A stretch of 64,000 nucleotides of DNA from Vitis vinifera (Eukaryota; Streptophyta; Magnoliopsida; Vitales; Vitaceae). The notes under the pieces were generated by a model. The model was not told the origin of the DNA and made no database searches. It saw nothing but the letters and a program-made list of their open reading frames with translations. Where the stretch lies: the NCBI RefSeq assembly GCF_030704535.1, contig NC_081812.1:16465001-16529000 (forward strand), in the 5' to 3' direction. A program made the position numbers and the translations under genes. Below are positions 3,519 through 64,000 of this stretch, one piece after another (positions within the stretch are counted from its first letter, which is position 1; each line of letters starts with the position of its first letter).

Positions 3519-6352
3519 TGTCATAAGACGCTTCAAATGACCCTCCCTATGGGCTTATATAGGAAATAGGAAGCTTTTAAAGACCCCAAGAGACATCTAC
3601 ACTTAGCTACAAAGTGGAAGAGTATGGAAGTTTTTAGAGAGGGTTAGAGATGTCTACACATCTCTACACTTGACTAGGAGAGCATTGGAATAGTGTGGAA
3701 TGTTCTAAATTCTTCCAAAGGCATCTTGTACATAACCTTATACATAGACTAGTGTAGGAGCTTCTAGATTATTCTTGATCTGTAAGGAAACCTCTAAGGT
3801 TCTACATACTTCCTGAGGTGTCTATAAATAGGTTAAGGCCTCATTTGGCCAAGACACCACCCAAATCACTTTCTAACCAAGCAAGTGAGCTTTCAAAGCA
3901 CTTGTAAAACATCATTTGAGAGCAATAGAAGCTTCCATTCTTTAAGAGTTGCCTATTTCGCCTTCTAAAGCTTCCAATTCGTGAGTAGTAAGCTAAGTAC
4001 TAGGAGTAAGGTTGACATAGCAAGATCACAAGTCTTGGTTTGTCTAAGTGTCACATGAGCTTAGGAAAATATTAATTCTATGATAGTTGGTATTAGAGTA
4101 TGGTTGCAAAGCAGGCATTGTGAAGGAAGCATATTGGGGTCCAATGTTGATGACACTAGTGAGCAAACTCGTGGAAGGAAAACCGAGCCTATTGTACGGG
4201 GTAGGGGTAGGAAGGATAAGTCTCATGATGTCGTTGTCAACATAGAGGCAAGGGCTAGCCAAAATGGAGCTAGCCATGGCGGACTCTCGGGAGGGGTTGG
4301 ACTTGATTGAGCAAGGCATGGAGAAGGGCATGGAAGATCTTAGGGAATAGATCCAAGACCTTCGTGAGGAGATGCTAGTCTCATAGGTTCAACTAGTGTC
4401 ACACGAGGAGTTTGTGTCCTTCGAAAAGAAGGTCATGAGTGTGCTTACTAGCATGGAGTCAAAGATGGAGGCTTTGGCTACCATAGAGTCCCGAGACCAA
4501 GGGGTTAGGCAATAGTTGGCTATCTATAAGGTCGTTGTGTCAGCGCTAGTCATGGCCATATGGGAGGCATCTAGGATAGAGATACTGAAGCCACAAGGGT
4601 TTAGTGGCAAGTAGGATGCCAAAGAGTTAGACAACTTCTTATGGCATATGGAGCAATACTTCGAGACTATCGCACTAACTGATGACGGCTAAGGTAAGGA
4701 CTATGATCCTCTACCTTACTAACATAGCTACTCTATGGTGGCGTCAAAAGTTCACCGATATGGAGAAAGACATTTGCATCATAGAAACATGGGAGGACTT
4801 TAAAAGGGAAATCAAAAGGTAGTTCTACCTCGAGGACGTGGCCTACCTAGCTAGGAAAAACATGAGACGTCTTAAGCACACAAACTCGATTTGTCTCTAT
4901 GTCAAGGAGTTCTCTTCGCTCATGCTTGAGATTCCTAATATGACTGAGGAGTTGTTATTCAACTTCATGGATAACCTACAAAGGGGGGCCAAGCAGGAAT
5001 TAAGGCATTGAGGTGTTCAAGACTTAATCACTGTTATGGCAGTAGTAGAGTTTTTAACGGATTACAAGAGGAAAGACTCCTCCAAGGTTGACTCTTTGGA
5101 GGATAGCCATGCCACTAGTGGAGAAGATGAGGTTTCAAGGGACCACAACGCTCTTAGAATGGGATCAGGCAAGACACTTAACGTTAGGAAAAAAAGAGGT
5201 AAGACGAAAAATAAGGACTTTACGCTTAAAATCAAGTGTTTCTTGTATGACAGTCCATATTGGGCACAAGATTGTCCAAAGAGGAAGATGCTTAGTGTCA
5301 TGATCGAGGAGAATGAATAAGAAAATGAGGCACATATGGGTTCGATGCAACTACTAGGTACCTTCCAAGTCAACCCAAAGCGTAGTACGCTTAAGACCTT
5401 CTTACTATTAAGGGTGCAAGTAAAGGAGGCAAAATGGGAGCAAACTAAAGTAGCCCGTACACACATGGACAAGGTCACCAAGGGAGAGGTGAACTTAATG
5501 GGCAAAAGAAAACAACACTCTAAGCATCGAAAGTGTAGGTGTCTGCATCCATCCAAGGCCTCATAGGAAAAGGAGGTGAAAAATATCCTGGCTGAGTAAG
5601 TCACCAGGAGACAAGGGGTCCTTTTTGTGATAGAGTATCTAGTCCAATGGAAATGTCTACCTAAGAGGCAAGCAAGTTGGGAACATGTGGATGCCTTGAG
5701 AAAGTTTTGGAAACACATCAAGAGATTTCAAGAAGAGGCAACGACAGGGACATCAATGGTATGGGTGAGGGAAAGTATCACAAGATGCTTCAAATACCCC
5801 TCCCCATGGGCTTATATAGGAGATAGGAAGCTTTTAGAGACTCTTGGAGACATCGACACTTAGCTACAAAGTGGAAGAGTATGAAAACTTTTAGAGAGAG
5901 TTAGAGATGTCCACGTATCTCTACACTTGGCTAGGAGAGCATTGGAGTAGTGCGAGGTGTTCTAGAGTCTTCCAAAGGCATCTTGTACATAGTCTTATAC
6001 ATAGACTAGTGTAGGAGCTTCTAGATTTTTCTTGATTTGTAAGGAACCCTCCAAGGTTCTAGAGACTTCCTAAGGTGCCTATAAATAGGTTAAGGCCTCA
6101 TTTGGCCAAGACACCACCCAAATCACTTCCTAATCAAACAAGTGAGCTTCCAAAGTATTTGTAAAACATCATTTGAGAGCAATAAAAGTTTCAATTCTTC
6201 AAGAGTTGCCTACTATGCCTTCTAAAGCTTCCAAGTCGTGAGTATCTTAGCCTAGTAAGTTAAGCATCAGGAGTAAGGTTGACTTAGCAAGATCACGGGT
6301 CTTGACTTGTCTAAGTATCATATGAGCTTAGGAAAATACTAAGTCCATGACA
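3519..6352 (+). mobile_element. Decayed gypsy derivative with gag and chromodomain remnants only (left copy)
   Basis: The LTRs are 3519-4085 and 5776-6352, both related to the LTR of the gypsy element at 29526. A primer-binding-like site follows the first LTR (TTGGTATTAGAG). The interior encodes a broken gag with a zinc knuckle (CFLYDSPYWAQDC near 5236-5274). It then goes almost directly to a chromodomain remnant (EYLVQWKCLPKRQASWE, about 5625-5690). Protease, reverse transcriptase, RNase H and integrase are absent. Many stops break gag. Flanks fit a 4-bp target duplication (CTTA), and the unoccupied site is visible near 23115. The element could only have moved with help from an intact relative. 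Confidence 0.85.
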
Positions 6353-14048: not shown

Positions 14049-14453
14049 AAAATATTTATCAAAGTAATATTTTGTATTCACATTTATATGAATTTTTTTT
14101 TTAAGTGTAAAAAATCACCGTTGATAACTGTGGTTTTAAAAGTTTCAAAAATATCATTAAAACTACAGTTTGTGACTGTGGTTTTACAATTTCCTTAAAA
14201 CCATAATTACTAATTATGATTTCAAAATTATTTTTAACCCACCCCCGTTTGAATGGTACTATGATTTTTAAAATATTCTTTATCATAATAATTATAAAAC
14301 TTTCACACTTTACCAAAATTTCTTAACAATGTACCAAATTTTCTTAAAGTTCGTTTCGGAGTGGAGAAATCTTTATACAATTTTCCATTATCAGTTTAAA
14401 ACTATTTTTCTTTTACAAATTATCCTTAATAAATTTTTTTTTACGACTGTTTT

Positions 14454-14493
<40 letters not shown>

Positions 14494-15005
14494 TTATTTA
14501 TTTTTTATATTTTCCTTGAAATTTTGAGAAAATAATTTTGCCTACATGCATTCCTATAAAAATTTATATATTTATGGTAAATAAAATATTTATTTTTTTT
14601 ATGAATTTTATCACATATGAATTAAAGAAAATTATTTTTTCATATTATTTTTAAATTTTAAAATAATTAAACAAATTGTTTATATTATTTAAAATTTTAC
14701 ATTTTCATATAAAAAATAATGTCAATGATTATGATTTTAGGTTATTCCTTAATAATTGTGGTTTACTAGTTATTATGATAAAAAATATTTTACCATTAAA
14801 ATGGAGGTGGATTAAAAATAATTTTGAAACCACAGTTACTAACTGTGGTTTTAAGAAAAATTGTAAAACCACAATCGCAAATTGTGGTTTTAAGTATATT
14901 TTTTAAACTTTTAAAATCATAGTTATCAATAGTGGTTTTTTATACTTAAAAAAAAATCATGTGGATGCTCACGTGCATACAAAAGATTACTTTGACAAAT
15001 ATTTT
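14049..15005. mobile_element. Large foldback element upstream of G1
   Basis: The outer arms pair over about 250 bp: the left arm starts at AAAATATTTATCAAAGTAAT (14049) and the right arm ends at its near complement (15005). Each arm also contains iterated short palindromes built on AAACCACAGTTACTAACTGTGGTTT and diverged versions of it. The loop holds a (TA)n run and T-rich DNA. No coding capacity is seen. The G3 upstream region lacks the element, so it is an insertion 65 bp before the G1 TATA box. The ends are not sharp enough to give a target duplication. Confidence 0.75.
14459..14489. repeat. (TA)n microsatellite
   Basis: A perfect dinucleotide run in the loop of the foldback element, followed by TTTA repeats. 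Confidence 0.9.
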
Positions 15006-15130: not shown

Positions 15131-17542
15131 ATGGGAAACCTATTTTCCTCCATTCTTCTCATCCTTCTTATCTCTTTCTTCTTCTCTTTTACAACTTCCA
15201 AAACCCAGAACTTTTTGCAAAGAGGCTCCTCTCTCTCTGTCGAAGATGATTCGGACGACTACATCACCTCTCCAGACAAATCATTCACTTGTGGTTTCTA
15301 TGGGATGGGGGAAAATGCTTACTGGTTTTCAATATGGTTCACAAATTCAAAGGAAAGAACTGTTGTTTGGATGGCCAATCGAAATAGACCTGTCAATGGC
15401 CGGGGCTCCAGAATTTCGCTGCAGAGAGATGGCACCATGATGCTAAGGGATGCTGATGGCTCAACTGTTTGGGAGACTAACACTACCTCTACCGATGTTG
15501 ATCGAGCAGAGCTTTTGGACACTGGAAACCTTGTTCTCAAGGACCCACGAGGTAAAATTCTGTGGCAAAGCTTTGATTTTCCAACTGATACTCTTCTGCC
15601 AAACCAAATCTTTACCACGAGCACAAAGCTGATCTCTATACTCAGAAAAGGGGATTTTTCTTCTGGTTACTTTAACTTCCTTTTTGACAATGACAATGTC
15701 TTGAGAATGATGTATGATGGGCCTGAGATTTCAAGCTTGTATTGGCCTAATCCTGATTGGGATGTTTTCCAAAATGGAAGAACAAACTATAACAGTAGCA
15801 GAATTGCTGTTTTAGATGAAATGGGGAGGTTTCTTTCGAGTGATAGAATGTCTTTCAAAGCTTCTGACATGGGTTTTGGAGTCAAAAGGAGGCTGACAAT
15901 GGACTACGATGGAAACCTGAGACTCTATAGCTTAAACCATTCCACGGGATTATGGAATATATCATGGGAAGCTCTTAGGCAACAGTGTAAAGTGCATGGG
16001 CTATGTGGTAGAAATGGGATTTGTATTTATACACCAGAACCCAAGTGTTCATGTCCTCCGGGCTATGAAGTAACTGACCCAAGTGACTGGAGCAAAGGTT
16101 GCAAGTCTAAGTTCAACCAAAGCTGTTCCCAAACACAGCAGGTAAAATTTGTGGAGCTTCCCCAGACCGATTACTATGGGTTTGATCTCAATTACAGCCA
16201 ATCTGTTTCAATGGAAGCTTGCAGGAAAATCTGCTTGGACGATTGCCTTTGCCAAGGATTCGTCTACAGGCTAACAGGAGAAGGGAACTGTTTCGCGAAA
16301 AGTACCCTCTTCAATGGCTTCAAGTCCTCCAACTTCCCTGGGAGTTTATATTTAAAACTGCCTGTGGATGTCGAAACGTCAGCACCCACTGTCCTTAATG
16401 GTTCTGATCTCATATGCGAGTCCAAGGAGGTTGAGGTTGTGCACAGTTCTTCTGTGTATGACACTGCCAGTAAAAAGATGAGATGGGTTTATCTCTACTC
16501 ATTTGCTTCTGCCATTGGTGCCATAGAAGTTCTCTTTATTGTGTCAGGTTGGTGGTTTCTTTTCAGGGTACATAATGTGCCATCTTCAGCTGAAGATGGA
16601 TATGGTCCGATATCAAGCCCGTTCAGGAGATTTAGCTACACCGAACTCAAGAAGGCAACCAACAATTTCAAAGTGGAGCTTGGAAGAGGAGGCTTTGGGG
16701 CTGTTTATAAGGGTGTTTTGGAGGATGAAAGGGCAGTAGCAGTGAAGAAATTGGGAGATGCCACTCAAGGGGAAGGGGAGTTTTGGGCTGAAGTAAGCAC
16801 AATCGGAAAAATCTATCACATGAACCTAGTCAGAATGTGGGGATTCTGTTCAGAGGGTAGACACAGACTTGTAGTCTACGAGCATGTAGAAAATCTGTCA
16901 CTGGATAAGCATCTCTTCAGCACGAGTTGTCTGGGATGGAAAGAGAGGTTTAACGTTGCAGTGGGGACAGCGAGGGGTTTAGCCTACCTTCACCATGAGT
17001 GTCTAGAATGGGTTATCCACTGTGACGTGAAGCCTGAAAATATACTTCTAGACAACGGGTTTGAACCAAAGATTGCAGATTTTGGGCTAGCCAAGCTGTC
17101 TCAGAGAGGTGGCCCCGGTTCAGGAGAATTCTCTCGGATTCGGGGGACTAAAGGGTACATGGCTCCAGAGTGGGCTATGAATCTTCCAATTACGGCAAAA
17201 GTTGATGTTTATAGCTATGGAGTTGTGGTTTTAGAGATGGTGAGGGGAATTCGGCTTTCGAAATGGGTGGGTGAGGATGGCGAGGAGCAGGAAGCTGAGC
17301 TGACGAGGTTTGTCAGGGCAGTGAAAAGGAAAATTCAATATGGCGAAGACAATTGGGTAGAGGATACAGTGGACCCAAGATTGAAGGGGAAGTTTAGCAG
17401 GCAGCAGGCTGCCATGTTGGTCGAAATAGGTATTTCTTGTGTGGAGGAAGATAGAAGTAAACGACCAACAATGGCCACCGTAGTGCAAGTTCTACTGGAA
17501 TGTGAAGATGAAGCCCAAGTCCAAACCCTGGACTTGGAGTAA
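15131..17542 (+). CDS. G1: G-type lectin receptor-like serine/threonine kinase (ZmPK1-like), intact
   Basis: This is a single-exon gene of 803 residues. It is a plasma-membrane receptor kinase: a signal peptide (1-23), bulb-type lectin domain (about 33-160), S-locus-type region, EGF-like module with six cysteines (C286 to C324), PAN/apple domain (about 338-414), transmembrane helix (453-478) and cytoplasmic kinase (about 513-790). Kinase motifs are all present: glycine loop G518-R-G-G-F-G523, Lys539, Glu554, HCDVKPEN (630-637), DFG (650-652) and APE (678-680). Cys631 precedes the catalytic Asp, so it is a non-RD kinase. In the family such receptors act in immune and wound or stress signalling; the ligand is unknown. 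The start is fixed by the signal peptide and by conservation among copies. Residues 498 to about 720 are identical to G2. Confidence 0.95.
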   Translation: MGNLFSSILLILLISFFFSFTTSKTQNFLQRGSSLSVEDDSDDYITSPDKSFTCGFYGMGENAYWFSIWFTNSKERTVVWMANRNRPVNGRGSRISLQRDGTMMLRDADGSTVWETNTTSTDVDRAELLDTGNLVLKDPRGKILWQSFDFPTDTLLPNQIFTTSTKLISILRKGDFSSGYFNFLFDNDNVLRMMYDGPEISSLYWPNPDWDVFQNGRTNYNSSRIAVLDEMGRFLSSDRMSFKASDMGFGVKRRLTMDYDGNLRLYSLNHSTGLWNISWEALRQQCKVHGLCGRNGICIYTPEPKCSCPPGYEVTDPSDWSKGCKSKFNQSCSQTQQVKFVELPQTDYYGFDLNYSQSVSMEACRKICLDDCLCQGFVYRLTGEGNCFAKSTLFNGFKSSNFPGSLYLKLPVDVETSAPTVLNGSDLICESKEVEVVHSSSVYDTASKKMRWVYLYSFASAIGAIEVLFIVSGWWFLFRVHNVPSSAEDGYGPISSPFRRFSYTELKKATNNFKVELGRGGFGAVYKGVLEDERAVAVKKLGDATQGEGEFWAEVSTIGKIYHMNLVRMWGFCSEGRHRLVVYEHVENLSLDKHLFSTSCLGWKERFNVAVGTARGLAYLHHECLEWVIHCDVKPENILLDNGFEPKIADFGLAKLSQRGGPGSGEFSRIRGTKGYMAPEWAMNLPITAKVDVYSYGVVVLEMVRGIRLSKWVGEDGEEQEAELTRFVRAVKRKIQYGEDNWVEDTVDPRLKGKFSRQQAAMLVEIGISCVEEDRSKRPTMATVVQVLLECEDEAQVQTLDLE

Positions 17543-26983: not shown

Positions 26984-29413
26984 ATGGGAAACCTTAGTCC
27001 TACATCTTCAAAGTTTCCTTCCATTCTTCTTATCATTCTCATATTTCTCATCTCCTTCTCTTTTGCAACTTCCAACACCCAGAACCTTTTGCGAAGAGGC
27101 TCCTCTCTCTCTGTCGAAGATGATTCCGACTACATCACCTCCCCAGACAAATCATTCACTTGTGGTTTCTATGGGATGGGGAAAAATGCTTACTGGTTTT
27201 CGATATGGTTCACAAATTCAAAGGAAAAAACTGTTGTTTGGACGGCCAATCGAAACACACCTGTCAATGGCCGGGGCTCCAGAATTTGGCTGCAGCGAGA
27301 TGGCACCATGATTCTAAGGGCTGCTGATGGCTCAACTGTTTGGGAGACGAACACTACCTCCACAGATGTTGATCGAGCAGAGCTTTTGGACACTGGAAAC
27401 CTTGTTTTGAAGGACCCGCGGGGTAAAGTTCTATGGCAAAGCTTTGATTTTCCTACTGATACTCTTCTGCCAAACCAAATCCTTACTACAAGCACAAAGC
27501 TGATCTCTATAATCAGAAGAGAGGATTTTTCCTCTGGTCATTTTTACTTCTTTTTTTATAATGACAATGTCTTGAGAATGATCTATGATGGGCCTGACAT
27601 TTCAAGCTTGTATTGGCCTAATCCTGATTGGGATGTTTTCCAAAATAGAAGAACAAACTATAACAGTAGCAGAATTGCTGTTTTAGATGAAATGGGGAGG
27701 TTTCTTTCGAGTGATAGAATGTCTTTCAAAGCTTCTGACATGGGTTTTGGAGTCAAAAGGAGGCTGACAATGGACTACGATGGAAACCTGAGACTCTATA
27801 GCTTAAACCATTCCTCGGGATTATGGAATATATCATGGGAAGCTCTTAGCCAACAGTGTAAAGTGCATGGGCTATGTGGTAGAAATGGGATTTGTATTTA
27901 TACACCAGAACCCAAGTGTTCATGTCCTCCGGGCTATGAAGTAAGTGACCCAAGTGACTGGAGCAAAGGTTGCAAATCAAAGTTCAACCATAGCTGTTCC
28001 CAACCACAGCAGGTAAAATTTGTGGAGCTTCCCCAGACCGATTACTATGGGTTTGATCTCGATTATAGCCCATCTGTTTCATTAGAAGCTTGCAGGAAAA
28101 TCTGCTTGGAGGATTGCCTTTGCCAAGGATTCGCCTACAGGCTAACAGGAGAAGGGAACTGTTTCGCAAAAAGTACCCTTTTCAATGGCTACAAGTCCTC
28201 CAACTTCCCTGGGAGTTTATATTTAAAACTGCCTGTGGATGTCCAAACGTCAGCACCCACTGTCCTTAATGGTTCTGATCTCATATGCGAGTCCAAGGAG
28301 GTTGAGGTTGTGCACAGTTCTTCTGTGTATGACACTGCCAGTAAACAGATGAGATGGGTTTATCTCTACTCATTTGCTTCTGCCATTGGTGCCATAGAAG
28401 TTCTCTTAATTGTGTCAGGTTGGTGGTTTCTTTTCAGGGTACATAATGTGCCATCTTCAGCTGAAAATGGATATGGTCCGATATCAAGCCAGTTCAGGAG
28501 ATTTAGCTACACCGAACTCAAGAAGGCAACCAACAATTTCAAAGTGGAGCTTGGAAGAGGAGGCTTTGGGGCTGTTTATAAGGGTGTTTTGGAGGATGAA
28601 AGGGCAGTAGCAGTGAAGAAATTGGGAGATGCCACTCAAGGGGAAGGGGAGTTTTGGGCTGAAGTAAGCACAATCGGAAAAATCTATCACATGAACCTAG
28701 TCAGAATGTGGGGATTCTGTTCAGAGGGTAGACACAGACTTGTGGTCTACGAGCATGTAGAAAATCTGTCACTGGATAAGCATCTCTTCAGCACGAGTTG
28801 TCTGGGATGGAAAGAGAGGTTTAACGTTGCAGTGGGGACAGCGAGGGGTTTAGCCTACCTTCACCATGAGTGTCTAGAATGGGTTATCCACTGTGACGTG
28901 AAGCCTGAAAATATACTTCTAGACAACGGGTTTGAACCAAAGATTGCAGATTTTGGGCTAGCCAAGCTGTCTCAGAGAGGTGGCCCTGGTTCAGGAGAAT
29001 TCTCTAGGATTCGGGGGACTAAAGGGTACATGGCTCCAGAGTGGGCTATGAATCTTCCAATTACGGCAAAAGTTGATGTTTATAGCTATGGAGTTGTGGT
29101 TTTAGAGATGGTGAGGGGAATTCGGCTTTTGAAATGGGTGGGTGAGGATGGCGAGGAGCAGGAAGCTGAGCTGACGAGGTTTGTCAGGGCAGTGAAAAGG
29201 AAAATTCAATATGGAGAAGACAATTGGATAGAGGATACAGTGGACCCAAGATTGAAGGAGAAGTTTAGCAGGCAGCAGGCAGCCATGATGGTCAAAATAG
29301 GTATTTCTTGTGTGGAGGAAGATAGAATTAAACGACCAACAATGGCCACCGTAGTGCAAGTTCTACTGGAATGTGAAGATGAAGCCCAAGTCCAAACCCT
29401 GGACTTGGAGTAA
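26984..29413 (+). CDS. G2: G-type lectin receptor-like serine/threonine kinase (ZmPK1-like), intact
   Basis: This is a single-exon gene of 809 residues with the domain order of G1. Positions are shifted by six: signal peptide 1-30, EGF-like C292-C330, PAN about 344-420, transmembrane helix 459-484, Lys545, HCDVKPEN 636-643, DFG 656-658, APE 684-686. Cys637 makes it a non-RD kinase. It differs from G1 mainly in the first 40 residues, scattered lectin-domain positions and the last 90 residues of the kinase (for example L for S in GIRLLKW, E for G in RLKEKFS, K for E in MVKIGIS). The kinase from the juxtamembrane FRRFSYTEL to the C-lobe is identical to G1. A gypsy element begins 112 bp after its stop codon, inside the presumed 3' UTR. 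Confidence 0.95.
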   Translation: MGNLSPTSSKFPSILLIILIFLISFSFATSNTQNLLRRGSSLSVEDDSDYITSPDKSFTCGFYGMGKNAYWFSIWFTNSKEKTVVWTANRNTPVNGRGSRIWLQRDGTMILRAADGSTVWETNTTSTDVDRAELLDTGNLVLKDPRGKVLWQSFDFPTDTLLPNQILTTSTKLISIIRREDFSSGHFYFFFYNDNVLRMIYDGPDISSLYWPNPDWDVFQNRRTNYNSSRIAVLDEMGRFLSSDRMSFKASDMGFGVKRRLTMDYDGNLRLYSLNHSSGLWNISWEALSQQCKVHGLCGRNGICIYTPEPKCSCPPGYEVSDPSDWSKGCKSKFNHSCSQPQQVKFVELPQTDYYGFDLDYSPSVSLEACRKICLEDCLCQGFAYRLTGEGNCFAKSTLFNGYKSSNFPGSLYLKLPVDVQTSAPTVLNGSDLICESKEVEVVHSSSVYDTASKQMRWVYLYSFASAIGAIEVLLIVSGWWFLFRVHNVPSSAENGYGPISSQFRRFSYTELKKATNNFKVELGRGGFGAVYKGVLEDERAVAVKKLGDATQGEGEFWAEVSTIGKIYHMNLVRMWGFCSEGRHRLVVYEHVENLSLDKHLFSTSCLGWKERFNVAVGTARGLAYLHHECLEWVIHCDVKPENILLDNGFEPKIADFGLAKLSQRGGPGSGEFSRIRGTKGYMAPEWAMNLPITAKVDVYSYGVVVLEMVRGIRLLKWVGEDGEEQEAELTRFVRAVKRKIQYGEDNWIEDTVDPRLKEKFSRQQAAMMVKIGISCVEEDRIKRPTMATVVQVLLECEDEAQVQTLDLE

Positions 29414-29525: not shown

Positions 29526-30148
29526 TGTCACAAGATGCTTCAAATGACCCTCCCCATGGCTTATATAGGAGGTGAGAAGCTTCTAGAGACCCTTGGAGAC
29601 AACCACACTTAGCCACTAGTGGGAAGAGTGTGGAAGGTTCTAGAAATGCCTAGAGAAGTCCACACAACTCTACACTATGGTAGAAGGCATGAGAAGGGTC
29701 CAAAGCTTTCTAGAGAAATCTAGAAGTCTCTTGAATATTCTAGAATAGTGTAGGACATTCTAGAAGTCTCTTGAATATTCTAGAATAGTGTAGGACTATC
29801 TAGAAGTCTCTTGAATATTCTAGAATAGTGTAGGACATTCTAGAATATTCATGAATTGTAAGGAACCCTCCAAGGTTCTAGAGAGTTCCATTGGTGCCTA
29901 TAAATAGGTGAGGGCCTCATTTGGCCAAGGCACCAAGCAAGTGAGCATCCAAGCACTTGTAAAGGCTTTCTTGAGATAATAAAGCTTTCATTCTTTAAGG
30001 AGTTGCCTACTAAGCTCTTAAGCTTTCGAGTCGCGAGTGTCTTAGCCGAGCAAGCTAAGCATTGGGGATCAAGGCTGACTTAGCAAGATCAAGCGTCTTG
30101 ACTTGCCTAAGTGTCGCATGAGCTTAGTGAACGACTAAGTCCGTGACA
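29526..30148 (+). repeat. 5' LTR of the gypsy element
   Basis: 623 bp long. U3 carries three 40-bp units (29719-29838) and a heat-shock-element cluster. The TATA box is TATAAATA (29899-29906) and a poly(A) signal AATAAA lies near 29975. It is 40 bp longer than the 3' LTR by exactly one repeat unit. Confidence 0.93.
29633..29855 (+). promoter_or_regulatory. Heat-shock-element array in the 5' LTR
   Basis: Perfect alternating GAA/TTC units at 5-bp spacing: GAAGGTTCTAGAA at 29633-29645 (three units); GAATATTCTAGAA at 29733, 29773 and 29813 (three units each, one per 40-bp repeat); and TTCTAGAATATTCATGAA at 29838-29855 (four units), 43 bp before the TATA box. In repeats 2 and 3 the trimer extends leftwards in phase (GAAgtCTCtt), with CTC as a one-base mismatch; in repeat 2 a perfect TTC continues it further left. 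Heat-shock factors bind three or more such units. Binding here is inference from the motif. Confidence 0.75.
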
Positions 30149-30190
30149 AGTGGTATCAGAGCGTGGCTACGAAGCGGGCATAAGGGAAGC

Positions 30191-33100
30191 ATGTCGGGCT
30201 CTAACATGGAGGAGACTAGCGAACAAACCCGTGGGAAGGAGGCCGAGCCTACTGCACGGGGCAGGGGCAGAGGTAAGAAGGATACATCTCGTGATGTTGT
30301 TGCCAACATGGAGGCAAGGTTAGCCAAGGTGGAGCTAGCCATGGCAGACACCCGGGAAGGGGTGGACTTGATCGAGCAAGGCATGGAGAAGGGCTTAGAG
30401 GATCTAAGGGAGCAGACCCAAGACCTTCGCGAGGGGGTGCTGGTCTCGCAAGTTCAGCCGGTGTCACACGAGGAGTTCATGTCTTTCCAAGACAAGGTCA
30501 TGAGCATGTTCACTAGTGTGGAGTCAAGGATGGAGGCCTTGACTGCACGAGTGGAGGCCCGAGACCAAGAGATTCGACAAGAGTTGGCCATCTATAAGAC
30601 CGTTGTATCAGCACGAGTCATGGCCACTCATAAGGCACCAAGGGTGGAGGTGCCCAAGCCACACACGTTCAGTGGCAAGAGGGATGCCAAGGAGCTAGAT
30701 AACTTCTTGTGGCACATGGAGCGTTACTTTGAGGCAATTGCATTAACGGATGAAGCCACTAAGGTACGTACCGCGACCCTTTACCTCACTGATAATGCTA
30801 CTCTATGGTGGCGTCGACGATTTGCCGACATAGAGAGAGGGACGTGCACCATAGACACATGGGATACCTTTAAGAGATAAATCAAGAGGCAATTCTATCC
30901 CGAAGACGTGGCTTACCTAGCAAGGAAGAGTTTGAAGCGTCTCAAGCACACGGGCTCGATCCGTGAGTATGTCAAAGAATTCTCTACTCTTATGCTTGAG
31001 ATACCTAACATGGCTGAGGAGGAGCTACTGTTCAACTTCATGGACAACTTGCAAAGCTGGGCCGAGCAAGAGTTGAAGAGACGTGGTGTCCAAGACCTAG
31101 CCACGGCCATGGCAGTAGCCGAGTCCTTAGTAGATTATAGAAGGGGAGACTCCTCCAAGCCCAAACCACCATCCAAGGGTAACCAGGCCAAAGGTGGGGG
31201 AGACAAGAGGTCGCAAGGCCATACCTCTAAGGAAAGATCAAGCAAAGGCCCTAGTGGCAAGGATGGCAAAGGCAAGGACAAGCGAAAGGAGTTCACGCCC
31301 AGGACCAATTGCTTCCTGTGCGATGGTCCGCACTAGGCACGAGACTGCCCTAAGAGGAAGGCCTTAAATGTTATGATCGAGGAAAATGAGCAAGAAGGCG
31401 ATGCTAAGATGGGATCGTTGTAGCTCTTAAATGCCCTTAAGGCCAAGCCGATGCCTAAGATGCCTCAAAGCAAAGGGCTGATGTATGTGGAGGCCCTTGT
31501 GAATGGGAAGGCCACCAAGGCCCTGGTGGACACAGGTGCCACTCACAACTTTGTCTCGGAGGATGAGGCAAGAAGGTTGGAGCTCCAAGCATCCAAGGAA
31601 GGAGGATGGCTCAAGGCAGTCAATTCAGCCGCCAAGCCATCACATGGAGTAGCTCGCGGGGTGACTATGCACATCGGCTCGTGGGAAGGAAGGGTCGACT
31701 TCACAGTGGCACCCATGGATGACTTCAAGATGGTGCTAGGAATGGACTTCCTACAGAAGGTCAAGGCCGTGCCACTACCTTTCCTACGCTCAATGGCTAT
31801 CCTAGAGGAGGAGAAGTTGTTCATGGTCCCTACGGTCAATGAAGGTACGCTCAAGACCCCTATGTTATCCGTTATGCAAGTAAAGAAGGGGTTAAAGAGG
31901 GAAGAGGTGACCTACCTCGCCACCCTAAAGGAAGAAAAGGATGATGGGTCGAGAGAACCCATACCTAAAGAAATCAAGGGGGTCCTTGATGAGTTCAAGG
32001 ACGTGATGCCGCCCGAGTTGCCTAAGAGACTTCCTCCTAGGAGAGAGGAAGATCACAAGATTGAGCTGGAGCCGGGAGCCAAGCCCCCTGCTATGAGGCC
32101 ATATAGGATGGCACCACCCGAGTTGGAGGAGCTAAGGAGACAACTCAAGGAGTTGCTAGATGCGGGGTTCATCCAACCATCTAAGGCTCCTTATGGCGCG
32201 CCGGTTCTATTTCAGAAAAAGCGTGATGGGTCCCTACGAATGTGCATAGATTACCGGGCACTCAACAAGGTGACGGTGAAGAACAAGTATCCCATCCCGC
32301 TCATTGCTGACTTGTTCAATCAACTTGGAAGGGCAAGGTACTTCACGAAGCTGGACTTAAGGTCAGGCTACTACCAAGTCAGGATTGCGGAGGGAGATGA
32401 GCCGAAGACTACATGTGTGACCAGGTATGGCTCATATGAGTTCTTAGTAATGCCTTTCGGACTCACCAATACCCCAGCAACGTTTTGCACCCTCATGAAC
32501 AAGATCTTCCACCCATACTTGGACAAGTTCGTGGTGGTGTACTTGGATGACATAGTCATCTATAGTAACACTCTAAAGGAGCACGTAGAGCACTTGAGGA
32601 AGGTCTTTAAGATCTTGAGGCAGAATGAGCTATACGTGAAGAAGGAGAAGTGTTCGTTTGCTAAGGAGGAAGTGAGCTTCCTTGGGCATCGCATCAGAGA
32701 TGGCAAGCTGATGATGGATAATAGCAAGGTGAAGGCCATCCAAGAATGGGATCCACCAACCAAGGTACCTCAACTCAGATCTTTCCTTGGTTTAGTTAAT
32801 TACTATCGGCGGTTCATAAAGGGTTATTCGGCAAGGGCCGCTCCAGTCACTGATCTTCTGAAGAAGAATAAGACATGGGAATGGGATGAAAGATGCCAAC
32901 AAGCCTTTGAGGACCTGAAGAAGGCTGTGACTGAGGAGCCAGTGTTGGCACTACCTGACCACACCAAGGTCTTTGAGGTACACATAGATGCCTCAGACTT
33001 CGCTATTGGGGGAGTCCTTATGCAAGAAAGGCACCCAATCGCATTTGAGAGTCGCAAGCTAAACGACACGGAGAAGCGTTACACGGTACAGGAAAAGGAG

Positions 33101-34828
33101 ATGACTGCCATCGTCCATTTCTTGCGCACCTGGAGGCACTATCTGCTAGGGTCTCACTTCATAGTGAAGACCGACAATGTGGCCACTAGCTACTTCCAGA
33201 CACAGAAGAAGTTGAGTCCTAAACAAGCTAGGTGGCAAGACTTCCTGGCCGAGTTCGACTATACGCTGGAGTATAAGCCGGGAAGTGCTAATCATGTGGC
33301 CGACGCCCTAAGCCGCAAAACCGAGCTAGCGTCTATGACGAGTCAGCCCCAAGGAGACATAATAGATCTTCTAAGGGAAGGACTGAAACATGATCCAGTG
33401 GCTAAGAGCCTCATTGCCCTGGCTCATGAAGGGAAGACCAAGCGGTTTTGGGTGGAGGACGACTTACTCTACACCAAAGGGAGACGACTCTACGTGCCTA
33501 AGTGGGGGAACATAAGGCGGAACCTGATTAAGGAGTGCCATGACACCAAGTGGGCAGGGCACCCTGGGCAACGACGCACTAGGGCACTACTCGAGTCGGC
33601 TTACTATTAGCTTCAAATACAGGATGAGGTTGAGGCCTATGTGAGGACTTGTCTTGTGTGCCAACAAGACAAGGTGGAGCAACGACAGCCTAGAGGCCTG
33701 TTGGAGCCATTACCCATAGCAGAGCGCCCATGGGACAGCGTCACCATGGACTTCATCATCGGGCTACCCAAGTCAGAGGACAACGGGTCGATCATAGTGG
33801 TGGTAGACAGGTTCTCTAAGTATGCAACCTTCATAGCAGCCCCGATTGACTGCACTGCGGAAGAGACGGCGAGGCTATTCCTAAAGCACGTAGTCAAGTA
33901 TTGGGGGTTGCCGAAGTTCATCATCAGTGATCGCGATCCACGTTTCACTGGGAAGTTTTGGACGAAGCTCTTCAAGCTTATGGGTTCGGAGCTTCACTTC
34001 TCCACAAGTTTTCACCCACAAACGGATGGGCAGACCGAGAGGGTGAACGCTTTATTGGAGCTGTACTTGAGGCACTTCGTGAGTGCCAACCAGAAGGATT
34101 GGGCTAAGTTGCTAGACATAGCCCAGTTCTCATACAATCTGCAAAGGAGTGAGGCGACCAATAAGAGTCCGTTCGAGCTAGCTACAGGACAGCAACCGTT
34201 AACTCCTCACACTCTAACGATTGGCTATACGGGGAGAAGTCCAGCGGCTTTCAAGTTCGCGAAAGGGTGGCACGAGCAAGCTGATATAGCACGCTCATAC
34301 TTGGACAAGGCCGCTAAGAAAATGAAGAAGTGGGCTGACAAGAAGCGACGACACACAGAGTACAAGGTCAGAGACATGGTGCTTGTCAAGCTCCTTCCTC
34401 AACAATTCAAGTCCCTAAGGTCGGTGCATAAGGGCCTTGTGAGGAGGTATGAAGGACCCTTCCCCATACTGGGGAAGGTCGGCAAGGTGTCCTATAGAGT
34501 CGAGCTGCCCTCGAGGTTGAAGATTCATCCTGTCTTCCACGCAAGCTACTTGAAGCCTTATCACGAAGACAAGGATGATCCAAGCCGAGGGCTTTCTAAG
34601 AGGGCAACTACAGCGGTTGTGACCTCCTATGACAAGGAGGTGGAACACATCATTGCAGACCGAATCATCAGAAGGCGTGGTGTGTCTCCTGCTACGGAGT
34701 ACTTAGTGAAATGGAAGGGACTACCAGAAAGCGAGGCTAGTTGGGAGCCAGCAAATGCACTATGGCAGTTCCAGGAACAGATTGAGCGGTTCCGGGCAGA
34801 AAACACGACGAGGACGTCTGCGGCTTAG
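30191..34828 (+). pseudogene. gag-pol polyprotein frame of the gypsy element, four in-frame stops
   Basis: One reading frame runs from ATG 30191 to the stop at 34826-34828. It is broken only by stop codons at 30878-30880 (gag), 31334-31336 (within the zinc knuckle), 31421-31423 (gag-protease junction) and 33608-33610 (integrase zinc domain); no frameshift is seen. Domains in order: gag (about 30650-31110), CCHC-like knuckle (CFLCDGPH, about 31310), protease DTGA (31529-31540), reverse transcriptase with YLDD (32540-32551), RNase H ([11 protein letters not shown], about 32980), integrase with HHCC and catalytic domain (about 33530-34150) and chromodomain (about 34630-34800; EYLVKWKGLPESEASWEP). 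As it stands it cannot make a full polyprotein. Confidence 0.92.
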
Positions 34829-34839
34829 GTGGGGGAGAG

Positions 34840-35422
34840 TGTCACAAGATGCTTCAAATGACCCTCCCCATGGCTTATATAGGAGGTGAGAAGCTTCTAG
34901 AGACCCTTGGAGACAACCACACTTAGCCACTAGTGGGAAGAGTGTGGAAGGTTCTAGAAATGCCTAGAGAAGTCCACACAACTCTACACTATGGTAGAAG
35001 GCATGAGAAGGGTCCAAAGCTTTCTAAAGAAATCTAGAAGTCTCTTGAATATTCTAGAATAGTGTAGGACATTCTAGAAGTCTCTTGAATATTCTAGAAT
35101 AGTGTAGGACATTCTAGAATATTCATGAATTGTAAGGAACCCTCCAAGGTTCTAGAGAGTTCCATTGGTGCCTATAAATAGGTGAGGGCCTCATTTGGCC
35201 AAGGCACCAAGCAAGTGAGCATCCAAGCACTTGTAAAGGCTTTCTTGAGATAATAAAGCTTCCATTCTTTAAGGAGTTGCCTACTAAGCTCTTAAGCTTT
35301 CGAGTTGCGAGTGTCTTAGCCGAGCAAGCTAAGCATTGGGGATCAAGGCTGACTTAGCAAGATCAAGCGTCTTGACTTGCCTAAGTGCCGCACGAGCTTA
35401 GTGAACGACTAAGTCCGTGACA
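34840..35422 (+). repeat. 3' LTR of the gypsy element
   Basis: 583 bp long with two 40-bp units (35033-35112). HSE trimers lie at 35047-35059 and 35087-35099, the four-unit HSE at 35112-35129 and TATAAATA at 35173-35180. As the downstream LTR, its promoter would face the ATG1 fragments and P2. Confidence 0.93.
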
Positions 35423-39656: not shown

Positions 39657-42499
39657 TGTCACAAAACGCTTCAAATGACCCTCCCTATGGGCTTATATAG
39701 GAAATAGGAAGCTTCTAGAGACCCAAGAGACATCTACACTTAGCTACAAAGTGGAAGAGTATGGAAGTTTTTAAAGAGGGTTAGAGATGTCTACACATTT
39801 CTACACTTGACTAGGAGAGCATTGGAATAGTGTGGGGTGTTCTAAATTCTTCCAAAGGCATCTTGTACATAACCTTATACATAGACTAGTGTAGGAGCTT
39901 CTAGATTATTCTTGATTTGTAAGGAACCCTCCAAGGTTCTAGATACTTCCTAAGGTGTCTATAAATAGGTTAAGGTCTCATTTGGCCAAGACACCACCTA
40001 AATCACTTTCTAACCAAGCAAGTGAGCTTTCAAAGCACTTGTAAAACATCATTTGAGAGCAATAAAAGCTTCCATTCTTTAAGAGTTGCATATTTCGCCT
40101 TCTAAAGCTTCCAATTCATGAGTATCTTAGCGTAGTAAGTTAAGTATTAGGAGTAAGGTTGACATAGCAAGATCACAAGTCTTGGCTTGTCTAAGTGTCG
40201 CATGAGCTTAGGAAAATATTAAGTCTGTGATAGTTGATATTAGAGTATGGTTGCAAAGCAGGCATTGTGAAGAAAGCATGTTAGGGTCCAATGTTGATGA
40301 CACTAGTGAGTAAACTCGTGGAAGGAAGACCGAGCCTATTGTAAGGGGTAGGGGTAGGAAGGATAAGTCTCATGATGTCGTTGCCAACATAGAGGCAAGG
40401 GCTAGCCAAAATGGAGCTAGCCATGACGGACTCTCGGGAGGGGTTGGACTTGATTGAGCAAGGCATGGAGAAAGGTATAGAAGATCTTAGGGAATAGATC
40501 CAAGACCTTCATGAGGGGATGCTAGTCTCATAGGTTCAGCTAGTGTCGCACGAGGAGTTTGTGTCCTTCGAAAAGAAGGTCATGAGCGTGCTTACTAGCA
40601 TGGAGTCAAAGATGGAGGCTTTGGCTACCATGGAGTCCCGAGACTAAGGGGTTAGGCAATAGTTGGCTATCTATAAGGTCGTTGTGTCAGCGCTGGTCAT
40701 GGCCATATGGGAGGCATCTAGGATAGAGGTACTGAAGCCATAAGGGTTTGGTGGCAAGTAGGATGCCAAAGAGTTAGACAACTTCTTATGGCATATGGAG
40801 CAATACTTCGAGACTATCGCACTAACTAATGACGGCTAAGGTAAGGACTACGATCCTCTACCTTACTAATATAGCTACTCTATGGTGGCGCCAAAGGTTC
40901 ATCGATATGGAGAAAGACATTTGCATCATAGAAACATGAGAGAACTTTAAGAGGGAGATCAAAAAGTAGTTCTACCCCGAGGACGTGGCCTACCTAGCTA
41001 GGAAAAACATGAGACGTCTCAAGCACACAAACTCGATTTGTCATTATGTCAAGGAGTTCTCTTCGCTCATGCTTGAGATTCCTAATATGATTGAGGAGTT
41101 GCTATTCAACTTCATGGATAACCTACAAAGGGGGGCCGAGCAGGAATTAAGGCATTGAGGTGTTCAAGACTTAATCACTGTTATGGCAGTAGTAGAGTTT
41201 TTAGCGGATTACAAGAGGAAAGACTCCTCTAAGGTTGAGTCTTTGGAGGATAGCCACGCCACTGGTGGAGGAGATGAGGTTTCAAGAGACCACAATGCTC
41301 TTAGAATGGGATCAGGCAAGACGCTTAACGTTAGGGAAGGAAGAGGTAAGACGAAAAATAAGAACTTTACGCTTAAAATCAAGTGTTTCTTGTATGACAG
41401 TCCACATTGGGCAAAAGATTATCCAAAGAGGAAGACACTTAGTGTCATGATCGAGGAGAATGAATAAGAAAATGAGGCACATATGGGTTTAATGCAACTA
41501 CTAGGTACCCTCCAAGTCAACCCAAAGCGTAGTACGCCTAAGACTTTCTTACTATCAAGGGTGCAAGTAAAGAAGGCAAAATGGGAGCAAGCTAAAAGTA
41601 GCCCGTACACACATGGACAAGGTCACGAAGGGAGAGGTGAACTCAATAGGAAAAAGAAAACAATACTCTAAGCATCGAAAGTGTAGGTGTCTGCATCCAT
41701 CCAAGGCCTCACAGGAAATGAGGTGAAGAATATCCTAACTAAGCGAGTCACCAGGAGACAAGGGGTCCTTCTCGTGATAGAGTATCTAGTCCAATGAAAA
41801 TGATTACCTAAGAGGCAAGCAAGTTGGGAACATGCGGATGCCTTGAGAAAGTTTTGGAAACACATCAAGAGATTTCAAGAAGAGGCAACGACAGGGACAT
41901 CAACGGTATGGGTGAGGGAAGGCATCATAAGATGCTTCAAATACCCCTCCCCATGGGCTTATATAGGAGATAGGAAGCTTCTAGAGACTCTTGGAGACAT
42001 CGACACGTAACTACAAAGTGGAAGAGTATGAAAACTTTTAGAGAGAGTTAGAGATGTCCACGCATCTCTACACTTGGCTAGGAGAGCATTGGAATAGTGT
42101 GGGGTGTTCTAGAGTTTTCCAAAGGCATCTTGTACATAGTCTTATACATAGACTAGTGTAGGAGCTTCTAGATTATTCTTGATTTGTAAGGAACCCTCCA
42201 AGGTTCTAAAGACTTCCTAAGATGCCTATAAATAGGTTAAGGCCTCATTTGGCCAAGGCACCACCCAAATCACTTCCTAATCAAACAAGTGAGCTTCCAA
42301 AGTATTTGTAAAACATCCTTTGAGAGCAATAAAAGTTTCAATTCTTCAAGAGTTGCTTACTACGCCTTCTAAAGCTTTCAAGTCGTGAGTATTTTAGCCT
42401 AGTAAGTTAAGCATCAGGAGTAAGGTTGGCTTAGCAAGATCACGGGTCTTGACTTGTCTAAGTATCACACGAGCTTAGGAAAATACTAAGTTCGTGACA
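39657..42499 (+). mobile_element. Decayed gypsy derivative (right copy)
   Basis: The LTRs are 39657-40232 and 41923-42499. It has the same structure as 3519-6352: broken gag with zinc-knuckle remnant (CFLYDSPHWAKDYP, its third Cys now Tyr), no pol, chromodomain remnant near 41780-41870. CTTA flanks both sides. It was copied with the segmental duplication and is not an independent insertion. Confidence 0.85.
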
Positions 42500-43535: not shown

Positions 43536-46408
43536 ATGGGAAACCTTAGTCCTACATCTCAAAAGTTTCCTTCCATTCTTCTTATCCTTCTCATATTTCT
43601 CATCTCCTTCTTCCCTTTTGCAACTTCCAACACCCAGAACATTTTGCTAAGAGGCTCCTTTCTATCGGTCGAAGATGATTCAGACTACATCACCTCCCCA
43701 GACAAATCATTCAATTGTGGTTTCTATCGGATGGGGGAAAATGCTTACTGGTTTTCAATATGGTTCACAAATTCGAAGGAACGAACTGTTGTTTGGATGG
43801 CCAATCGAAACAGACCTGTCAATGGCCGGGGCTCCAGAATTTCGCTGCAGCAAGATGGTGCCATGATTCTAAGGGAATGCTGATGGCTCCCTGTTTGGGA
43901 GACGAACACTACCTCCACCGATGTTGATCGAGCAGAGCTTTTGGACACTGGAAACCTTGTTCTGAAGGACCCACGCGGTAAAATTCTATGGCAAAGCTTT
44001 CATTTTCCAACGGATACTTAATTTTCTGCCAAACCAACTCCTCACTACAAGCACAAAGCTGATCTCTATAGTCAGCAGAGGGGATTTTTCCTCTGGTCAC
44101 TTTCACTTCTTTTTTTTATAATGACAATGTCTTGAGAATGATGTACGATGGGCCTGAAGTTTCAAGCTTGTATTGGCCTAATCCTGATGGGAATGTTTTC
44201 CGAAATGGAAGAACAAACTATACCAGTAGCAGAATTTATGTTTTAGATGAAATGGGGAGGTTTCTTTCGAGTGATAGAATGTCTTTCAAAGCTTCTGACA
44301 TGGGTTTTGGAGTCAAAAGGAAGCTGACAATGGACTACGATGGAAACCTGAGACTCTATAGCTTAAACCATTCTACGGGATTATGGAATATATCATGGGA
44401 AGCTCTTAGCGAACAGTATAAAGTGCACGGGCTATGTGGTAAACTCGGGATTTGTATTTATACGCCAGAACCCAAGTGTTCACGTCCTCCGGGCTATGAA
44501 GTAAGTGACCCAAGTGACTGGAGCAAAGGTTGCAAGTCTAAGTTCAACCAAAGCTGTTCCCAACCACAGTAGGTAAAATTTGTGGAGCTTCCCCAGACCG
44601 ATTACTATGGGTTTGATCTGAATTATAGCCAATCTGTTTCACTAGAAGCTTGCAGGAAAATCTGCTTGGAGGATTGCCTTTGCCAAGCATTCGCCTACAG
44701 GCTAACAGGAGAAGGGATCTGTTACCCAAAAAGTACCCTTTTCGATGGCTACAAGTCCTCGAACTTCCTAGGGAGTATATATTTAAAACTGCCTGTAGAT
44801 GTCTAAACGTCAGCACCCACTATTCTGAATGGCTCTGATAACATATGCAAGTCTAAGGAAGTTGAGGTCGTGCTGAGATCTTCTTCTATGTATGACACTG
44901 CCAATAAAGGGATGAGATGGGTTTATCTCTAATCATTTGTTTCCATCATTGGTGCAATGGAAGTTCTCTTTATTGTGTCGGGTTGGTGGTTTCTTTTCAG
45001 GGCACATAATGTGCCATCTTCGGTTGAAGATGGGTATGCTCCGATTTCAAGCTAGTTCAAGAGATTTCGCTACACCGAACTTAAGAAAGCAACCGACAAT
45101 TTCAAAGTAGAGCTTGTAAGAAGAGGCTTTGGGGCTGTTTATAAGGGTGTTTTGGAGGATGAAAGGGTAGTAGCTGTGAAGAAATTGGGAGATGTCATTC
45201 AAGGGGAAGAGGAGTTTTGGGCTGAAATAAGCACTATCCGAAAAATGAGTTTTGACCCAAGATATTTAAAAAAAAAAAATTCATAAAATAAACTTTGTTT
45301 CCGAAATAATACCTAATTTAGTGTGTTTATGACATGTGTTTTAATAAAACTAAACAAAAATATTTTTATATCAAATTAAAAATATTAATGATTTAATTTC
45401 ATATATTATTATGTTTTAAATTAATGAGATAAGTTTATTAACCATTCACATATTTTGAATAAATATAAAATCAAAATAATATAATATTTTTATTTAAAAA
45501 GATTAAAGTTAAAGTTGTAGTTAGTGACTATGACTTTAATAATTTAAAAAAAAAAATTAAAATGATAGTTATCAATTACGATATTATGATGTGAAGGCAT
45601 ACGTACGCTAGATTTAGTATTATTTTGGAAACAAGTTTAATTTATGGATTTTTTATTATTATTAATATCCTATTTTGGGCCAAAACTGTCGAAAAAATTA
45701 TCATAAGAACCTAGTTAGAATGTGGGGATTCTGTTCAGAGGGTAGACACAGACTTGTAGTCTATCAGCATGTAGAAAATCTGTCACTGGATAAGCATCTC
45801 TTCAGCACGACTTTTCTGGGATGGAAATAGAGGTTTAACGTTGCAGTGGGGACAACACGGGGTTTAGCCTACCTTCACCATGAGTGTCTAGAATGGGTTA
45901 TCCATTGTGACGTGAGGCCTGAAAATATACTACTAGACAATGGGTTTGAACCAAAAATTGAAGATTTTGGGCTAGTAAAGCTGTCCCGAAGAGGTGGCCT
46001 TGGTTCAGGAGAATTCTCTCGGGTTCCGGGGACTAAAGGGTACATGGCTCCAGAGTGGGCTATGAATCTTCCAATTACGGCAAAAGTTGATGCTTATAGC
46101 TATGGAGTTGCGGTTCTAGAGATGGTGAGGGGAATTTGGCTTTCAAATTGGGTGGGTGGGGATGGTGAGGAGCAGGAAGCTGAGCTGACGAGGTTTGTTA
46201 GGCTAGTGAAACGGAAAATTCAATGTGGAGAAGACAATTGGATAGAGGATACATTGGACCCAAGATTGAAGGGGAAGTTTAGCAGGCAGCAGCAGTCGAA
46301 ATAGGTATTTCTTGTGTGGAGGAAGAGAGAAGTAAAAGACCAACAATGGCCACCGTAGTCCAAGTTCTACTGGAATGTGAAGATGAAGCCCAAGTGGACT
46401 TGGAGTAA
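43536..46408 (+). pseudogene. P2: broken G-type lectin receptor-like kinase (ZmPK1-like)
   Basis: It shares with P1 the +1/-1 pair near 43877, the 4-base gain near 44020, the T-run gain near 44110, TAG at 44570-44572, TAA at 44804-44806, the foldback insertion in the kinase domain, and TAG at 45828-45830. It has extra stops of its own: TAA at 44930-44932 in the transmembrane segment and TAG at 45053-45055 before the kinase. A small loss near 46295 also shifts the C-terminus. It keeps the TATA box (43069-43075) and the extra 420-bp block with a second TATA-like site (43359-43368). A non-coding transcript remains possible, but no receptor can be made. Confidence 0.93.
45247..45688. mobile_element. 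Small foldback (TIR) element in the kinase domain of P2
   Basis: Same insertion as at 9100-9535, with better kept ends: GAGTTTTGACCC at the left and GGGCCAAAACTG at the right. CGAAAAA flanks lie on both sides (45238-45246, 45689-45697). Its identical position in P1 and P2 shows that the insertion came before the block duplication. Confidence 0.82.
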
Positions 46409-63434: not shown

Positions 63435-63995
63435 TGTCACGACCTACTCAAATGACCTTTCCCATGGGCTTATATAGAGGGCAGGAAGCTTTTGGAGGCT
63501 CCTAAAACCACTTACACATAGTCATTGATGGGAAGAGTGTGGAAGGGTCTTCGAAAGGCTAGAGACACCCACACTTCTCTACATCAAGGGTGGAAGACAA
63601 GGGAAGCCTATGGAATGTTCTAAAAACGTCCAAATATGTCTTGTAAATACTTGTACATAGCTTTTGTATAAAGTTTTCTAGATAATTCTAGGAAAGTAAG
63701 GAACCTTTGTGGGTTCTAGAGAGTTCCATTAGTGCTTATAAATAGGTGAAGGCCTCATTTGGGCAAGGCACCACCCAAACCACTTTGTAACCAAGCAAGT
63801 GAGCTTCCAAGCACTTGTAAAGTTTTCTTTGAATAATAAAAACTACCATTCTTCAAGTGTTGCCTACTACGCCTTCCAAATCTTCCAAATTGTGTATATC
63901 TTAGCCTAACGAGCTAAGCATCGGGGGTAAGGCTAACTTAGCAAGATCAAGTGTTTTGACTTGCCTAAGTGCCGCATGAGACTAAGTTTGTAACA
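63435..63995 (+). mobile_element. 5' LTR of another member of the gypsy family, cut by the window edge
   Basis: It starts TGTCACGACC and ends TTTGTAACA, followed by GTTGG, the start of a primer-binding site as in the copies at 4086 and 40233. It aligns along its length with the LTRs at 29526 and 3519 (CTTATATAGAGG, CTATAAATAGGTGAAGGCCTCATTTGG, GAGCTTCCAAGCACTTGTAAAG). In place of the four-unit HSE it reads TTCTAGATAATTCTAGGAAA. The rest of the element lies outside the window. Confidence 0.8.
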
Positions 63996-64000
63996 GTTGG

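Follow-up and report, generated by a model that had tools for sequence, protein, structure and literature searches.

The window analysed here, a stretch of 64,000 bases from Vitis vinifera, contains five similar receptor-kinase copies (approximately 7460-9830, 15180-17100, 27050-29413, 43610-45990 and 49400-51330) and a group of related LTR retrotransposons. The full-length best matches of an 809-codon receptor-kinase gene were in Vitis (92% to V. rotundifolia), and 112 bp past its stop codon starts the 5' LTR of the element with which this report is concerned. Two further elements on the plus strand, element A (3519..6352), an old short relative whose own LTRs differ by K 0.132, and element C (39657..42499), its duplicate, represent one insertion which was duplicated along with the receptor-kinase array. 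An LTR of subfamily D (63436..63997, plus strand) is cut by the window end. Two nested inverted-repeat pairs at 14094-14956, with arms of 99 and 86 nt which are 87% and 80% complementary, are perhaps a foldback element.

The focal element is a complete LTR element with a 4-bp target duplication, CACT. Its 5' LTR (29526..30148, plus strand) is 623 bp long, reads TGTCAC...GTGACA and is preceded by CACT; its duplicate, the 3' LTR (34840..35422, plus strand), is 583 bp long, has one 40-bp unit fewer and is followed by CACT. The two LTRs differ by 5 substitutions, all of them transitions and none inside the heat-shock element (HSE) runs described below. The primer-binding site TGGTATCAGAGC was read from the sequence at 30151..30162 (plus strand) and is presumably of the initiator-Met type, while a purine-rich tract lies just ahead of the 3' LTR. 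The gag-pol frame (30143..34828, plus strand) specifies capsid-like, protease, reverse transcriptase (RT), RNase H, integrase and chromodomain regions. It is interrupted by premature stops at 30878, 31334, 31421 and 33608, so this copy is broken.

The domains were identified by scanning the pieces of the frame separately against Pfam, the frame not being read through. Protease (13-102), RT (256-415), RNase H (478-602) and the integrase zinc domain (688-719) were found in one piece. The integrase core in the next piece fell below the Pfam cut-off (27.2 vs 32.6 bits), as did the capsid-like match, and the chromodomain (PF00385, E 2e-13) occupies residues 333-385 of the last piece, at the integrase C-terminus. 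The integrase piece was up to 93% identical to V. vinifera entries over 91% of its length. The order protease, RT, RNase H, integrase, together with the chromodomain, bears out the initial annotation of this LTR as that of a gypsy chromovirus; a COPIA78-type Ty1/copia element is ruled out by the same domain order and chromodomain.

A scan of the whole window for places where GAA and TTC alternate every 5 bp over three units or more revealed five such runs in the 5' LTR, none of which is assigned a strand. The first has three units, GAAGGTTCTAGAA, at 29633..29645, and its homologous place is also occupied in other subfamilies. Three further three-unit runs, each GAATATTCTAGAA, are located at 29733..29745, 29773..29785 and 29813..29825, inside a 40-bp tandem repeat (29719..29845, plus strand). 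The fifth, TTCTAGAATATTCATGAA at 29838..29855, has four units, and 43 bases separate its end from a putative TATA box, TATAAATA (29899..29906, plus strand), recognized by its sequence and place. The run scan agreed to the base with the five perfectly spaced clusters of the initial annotation, which had also placed three trimers in the 40-bp repeat and the four-unit cluster 43 bp before the TATA box; both positions were correct. In terms of HRE-type sites, which consist of at least three adjacent nGAAn units with four the strongest (PMC5059998), the 5' LTR carries four three-unit runs and one four-unit run. The 40-bp repeat amounts to 3.2 copies in the 5' LTR, compared with 2.2 in the 3' LTR. 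Its TTCTAGAA cores are exactly 20 bp apart, at 29738, 29758, 29778, 29798 (altered), 29818 and 29838, a phasing which was absent from the initial annotation.

Four runs, starting at 34947, 35047, 35087 and 35112 (span 34947-35129), were identified in the 3' LTR. Together with the five of the 5' LTR they make up every run of three or more units in the 64,000 bases; none was found in element A, element C or the subfamily D LTR, and all five related LTRs of the window besides the two of the focal element are free of them. Dinucleotide shuffles of the U3 gave a mean of 0.006 runs and reached five in 0 of 5000 trials. When the tandem repeat was collapsed to one unit, three runs were left, and three were again reached in 0 of 5000 shuffles. 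For the whole window the observed nine runs compare with a mean of 1.5, nine being reached in 0 of 30 shuffles, and runs of at least two units occur at 18.7 per kb in the U3 vs 0.94 per kb in the remaining window.

The genome-wide search for LTRs with the same array that the initial annotation had proposed was carried out over 495.6 Mb in 21 contigs. Using the focal LTR as query, the best 40 of 1101 candidates were scored (two in the window and 38 fetched). All 40 of these nearest copies contained at least two three-unit runs, 39 had one with at least four units, and the number of 40-bp units ranged from 1 to 5. A 36-base piece of the array had 141 exact copies in the genome vs 0 for a reversed control, and the first 100 of the 141 places listed formed 55 LTR-sized clusters by hand count. 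The array as a gain of this single insertion is ruled out, since many genome copies have it and the sister subfamilies have single sites. Among the best 40 of 1101 there were eight solo LTRs with matching 4-bp duplications. Eleven LTR pairs of this array class, here called B, showed 0-7 substitutions each (one pair, 10.5 kb apart, includes a truncated LTR), which points to a recent spread of the class. Despite these 0-7 substitutions, four of the ten pairs without truncation had two LTRs of unequal array length. One copy, L012, has a perfect six-unit run, TTCTAGAAGTTTCTTGAATATTCTAGAA, at LTR position 273, where a base difference joins two neighbouring array sites. By eye, the target sites resemble GC-N4-GC, GC preceding the duplication in 10 of 11 pairs and following it in 8 of 11.

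Conservation of the sites was assessed over 39 copies in the frame of a natural one-unit copy. The 29633 site and the four-unit site together differed in 1 of 1209 cells, compared with 97 of 8693 in the remaining non-array U3 of the same copies, and 119 of 20,000 random block pairs were as clean. Within the class this result is suggestive only, shared ancestry lying outside the test. Between subfamilies the core bases are not clearly more conserved than the other U3 bases, the differing cells being 9.1% vs 12.1% in E, 21.3% vs 29.8% in D and 22.8% vs 20.3% in C.

Sister LTRs were collected with a C-type query (best 40 of 1059 candidates scored; 36 of 41 rows fetched, four being in the window and one a 138-base piece) and a D/E-type query (best 40 of 1056 scored; 39 of 41 rows fetched, one being in the window and one not taken). 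Among these best-scoring candidates 25 of the 36 C-type copies and 35 of the 39 copies of D/E type had at least one three-unit run, and the runs occupy about five homologous places. No run of more than three units and no 40-bp array was found in the 36 and 39 copies. One correction to the initial annotation is that this copy is not alone in having such sites, as single three-unit sites already occur in the sister subfamilies; the lineage is set apart by its four-unit site and by the amplification of the array. The K values of LTR pairs were 0.0055-0.0112 for E (four pairs), 0.075-0.091 for C (two pairs) and 0.126 for D (one pair). Across 115 related LTRs, copies which share descent so that the events are not independent, 267 GAA/TTC runs were counted at 5-bp spacing vs 73 for the next triplet pair, AGA/TCT. 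At spacings of 3, 4 and 6-10 the same 115 LTRs gave 0 GAA/TTC runs. These counts support the view that the motif behaves like a heat-shock-element array, being specific for both the GAA/TTC pair and the 5-bp spacing.

Full-length relatives were obtained with an RT-region query, the best 40 of 316 candidates being scored (37 stretches fetched, and three elements from the earlier set). Their RT regions were 92-100% identical. The 5' LTRs of these 40 nearest elements of 316 fell into class B with the array (9), class F (8) and class H (20), with three left unclassified: L144 had no LTR in its stretch, that of L157 was truncated, and L172 had another LTR with two three-unit runs. Class F has one three-unit and one four-unit site and no array, the four-unit site being down to three in one of the eight. 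In class H none of the 20 LTRs has a run of at least three units, and all 20 retain a two-unit TTCTAGAA. The 20 H LTRs have a mean identity of 95.1% (190 pairs), and two are 100% identical, which indicates that this class also spread recently; as it did so with no three-unit site in any of its 20 members, the sites are not required for the family to multiply. The H LTRs are about 89% identical to a one-unit array LTR and the RT regions about 95-97%; an origin of this class by a further LTR swap was considered and discarded as unproven, as LTRs may outpace pol.

Sequence correspondences link the classes. TTCTTGATTTG in the E LTRs corresponds to TTCATGAATTG in the F and array LTRs, and TTGTATATAGGCTTGTACATAGAATAG in the F LTRs corresponds to TTGAATATTCTAGAATAG in the array LTRs. 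A stepwise order from E through F to the array can be read from these natural copies, the direction being our inference. In a tree of the LTRs with the array excised, which left out L140 and L163 (its LTR cut by the stretch), F and array LTRs were intermixed. This mixing would mean repeated gain, loss or exchange of the array, unless the tree lacks the power to tell.

Array LTRs also flank much shorter elements. Of the 10 untruncated pairs, seven are spaced at 2.24-2.33 kb and three at 5.27-5.31 kb. In four short copies the interior measures 1.70 kb and aligns with nothing but the first 1.3 kb and the final 0.2 kb of its long counterpart; the longest open stretch is 561-567 codons in three of them and 426 in the other. 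Judged from this alignment, the short elements are apparently gag-only. They have the make-up of a non-autonomous partner: RT and the integrase core are missing, and the primer-binding site, purine tract and LTR are those found in the full-length element. The shared LTR and the recent LTR pairs suggest that the short element may be mobilised in trans by the full-length one. The short elements measure about 2.8-3.0 kb; the grapevine Gypsy-V1 (2,825 bp, PMC9097378) is near in length, which is a lead by length alone.

The LTRs and interiors of the short elements differ in their relationships. Short elements with B-type LTRs (B-short, seven copies) have a mean identity to the long B elements (three copies) of 97.6% in the LTR and 80.3% in the first 1.36 kb of the interior; to E-type short elements (E-short, four copies) the values are 88.5% in the LTR and 94.4% in the interior. 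This reversed order, which rate differences alone do not give, implies that the LTR was exchanged. Four of the seven B-short copies (L049, L050, L052 and L137) have leader stretches which, in 50-nt bins, are 94-100% identical to the long element and which end at differing points about 200-450 nt past the primer-binding site. In the other three (L051, L136 and L138) the leader resembles that of the E-short elements. Beyond the leader the B-short elements are 74-88% identical to the long element, and in their 3' tail identity stays at 60-72% up to the final 25 nt ahead of the LTR. A long-like leader stretch was also present in one of the four E-short copies. These leader mosaics would fit repeated template switching between co-packaged RNAs.

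Several described systems resemble parts of this arrangement. Like the grape LTR, those of ONSEN/COPIA78, TERESTRA, COPIA37 and ROMANIAT5 (PMC5059998, PMC3907296) and of Thlaspi Alesia.FAM.7 (PMC10881000) carry clustered nGAAn units of the three- and four-unit types. Four adjacent units gave the strongest heat induction in Brassicaceae COPIA elements and three a moderate one, gap and step types being mostly insufficient, and the four-unit site of ONSEN arose by duplication of a two-unit precursor (PMC5059998). The ONSEN LTR is bound by HSFA2, and dependence on HSFA1 is reported (PMC3907296). These Brassicaceae families are Ty1/copia elements with a measured heat response, whereas the grape element is a Ty3/gypsy chromovirus known from its sequence. 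In contrast to these COPIA LTRs, the grape LTR combines several three-unit sites in a 40-bp array with a four-unit site and is shared with a short element. TCN3 of Cryptococcus, which transposes at 37 C, is, like the grape element, Ty3/gypsy with HSE-like LTR sites; it differs in being fungal and in having two putative HSEs, with no array or partner mentioned in the available text (PMC12810828).

Sharing or homogenisation of regulatory sequence, LTR or noncoding, between autonomous and non-autonomous partners, as in grape, is described for wheat RLC_Angela (PMC9744471) and grass pararetroviruses (PMC5491270), and recombination or template switching was proposed or inferred in both cases. The available text of these two papers describes no stress response for the shared sequence, whereas the shared grape LTR has an HSE array. 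Heat-activated plant gypsy elements have been reported in papers whose available text names no HSE (PMC9780303, PMC7170881). In the literature found, the heat-responsive plant LTRs described with HSEs are copia elements of Brassicaceae, and the nearest gypsy case is the fungal TCN3 (PMC12810828). No description of a plant gypsy LTR with an HSE array was found in the open-licence literature, which is weak evidence of absence. Searches outside plants gave results expected for a plant element: three pattern matches to the RT region in viral contigs, none confirmed, and 0 occurrences in contigs of prokaryote genomes of a 21-base pattern taken from the array. Scanning the LTR for bacterial promoters and terminators gave 0 hits, the bacterial models being uninformative on a plant promoter.

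The array is probably a set of HSEs near the promoter which couples transcription to heat through heat-shock factors (HSFs), as in ONSEN and with a separate origin. Upon heat, HSF trimers would bind the three-unit sites and the four-unit site, the 20-bp phasing placing them on about one face of the DNA, and the bound HSFs would activate transcription directed by the TATA box at 29899. The starting point would have been related LTRs with a single three-unit site or two; the four-unit site would have followed, and then a new three-unit site would have been amplified as the 40-bp tandem repeat. Slippage in reverse transcription is the probable route of amplification, because the two ends of a given insertion often have LTRs of unequal length. 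The LTR, in some copies with a variable stretch of leader, would have been exchanged between full-length and short elements, template switching among RNAs packaged together being the probable means. The different superfamily and the graded LTR states in one genome support an origin separate from that of ONSEN. The independent gain which the initial annotation proposed for this chromovirus is supported as far as these two points go, and needs amending in another, for single three-unit sites are already found in the sister subfamilies. In favour of the HSE reading are the perfect sites and their placing, the shuffle results, the specificity for GAA/TTC at 5-bp spacing, the retention of sites in all 40 nearest copies, the recent spread of the class, the cleanness of the two sites outside the array, the LTR exchange with the short elements and the Brassicaceae precedents. 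Against it stand the recent spread of the H class with no three-unit site, the lack of clear core conservation between subfamilies, the strong folding of the array as RNA and the broken state of the focal copy; silencing could also keep the HSE sites closed.

An unlikely alternative is that the array is a by-product of a U3 rich in TCTAGA-type palindromes, a repeat grown by slippage on which HSF occupancy is absent or is ineffective in silenced chromatin. TTCTAGA-type words do occur at several places in the LTRs of all subfamilies, AGA/TCT ranks second in the number of runs at 5-bp spacing (73), array length changes fast, and the H elements spread with no sites. A mere by-product would not readily account for the three separate runs which survive collapse of the repeat (0 of 5000 shuffles) and the restriction of runs to 5-bp spacing, for the near absence of differences from two separate sites (1 of 1209 cells), or for the fourth unit, which came from changes outside the palindrome when the E sequences are compared with those of F and B. 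Far less probable is a role of the palindromic array at the RNA level, within the 3' U3 of the genomic transcript (its folding, the formation of its end or its packaging), the likeness to HSEs being accidental. The array RNA (29700-29870, 171 nt) does fold at -56.2 kcal/mol with a z of -5.3, and 0 of 200 shuffles were equally stable; good folding is nevertheless expected of any tandem palindrome, and it leaves the 5-bp spacing unexplained. The 29633 site and the four-unit site outside the array need no hairpin, and the array can have anything between 1 and 5 units and is missing from the F and H elements. An RNA hairpin is a weaker alternative to the HSE reading.

It is also rather improbable that the sites are bound by HSFs and are not mainly a heat switch, the factor being one of development, seed, callus or another stress. 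Plant HSFs share one recognition core. They are many, 21 in Arabidopsis (PMC3907296), and one full-length long read from the grapevine Gypsy-V1 locus was obtained from unheated callus (PMC9097378), a locus tied to the short elements by length alone. Against such a role, site type tracks the size of the heat response in Brassicaceae COPIA elements (PMC5059998).

Measured by the site types of the Brassicaceae COPIA elements, the focal LTR, with four three-unit sites and one four-unit site, 20-bp core phasing and 43 bp to the TATA box, is at least as well equipped as that of ONSEN. On the HSE reading, the shared LTR would let one heat signal act on both the full-length supplier of enzymes and the short element depending on it. 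A wider and more tentative proposal is that an LTR cassette able to sense heat arose in a grapevine chromovirus and was transferred between element bodies by template switching. The autonomous element and the short one may thereby have a heat-coupled promoter in common, its strength depending on how many array units it has. Closely related elements of one genome form a dosage series: no site, a three-unit and a four-unit site, and these plus 1-5 array units. As their RT regions are 92-100% identical and their LTRs have from none to several sites, RNA-seq under heat could test dosage without constructs, the site-free H sister class serving as a natural control. On its sequence this is a strong candidate for a heat-responsive LTR, carried by a gypsy chromovirus in a woody, long-lived crop, and the intermediate steps are preserved. 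It is relevant to the questions of how transposons come under stress control and whether the number of sites tunes that control, and the exchange of LTRs suggests that stress control can spread between element lineages as a module.
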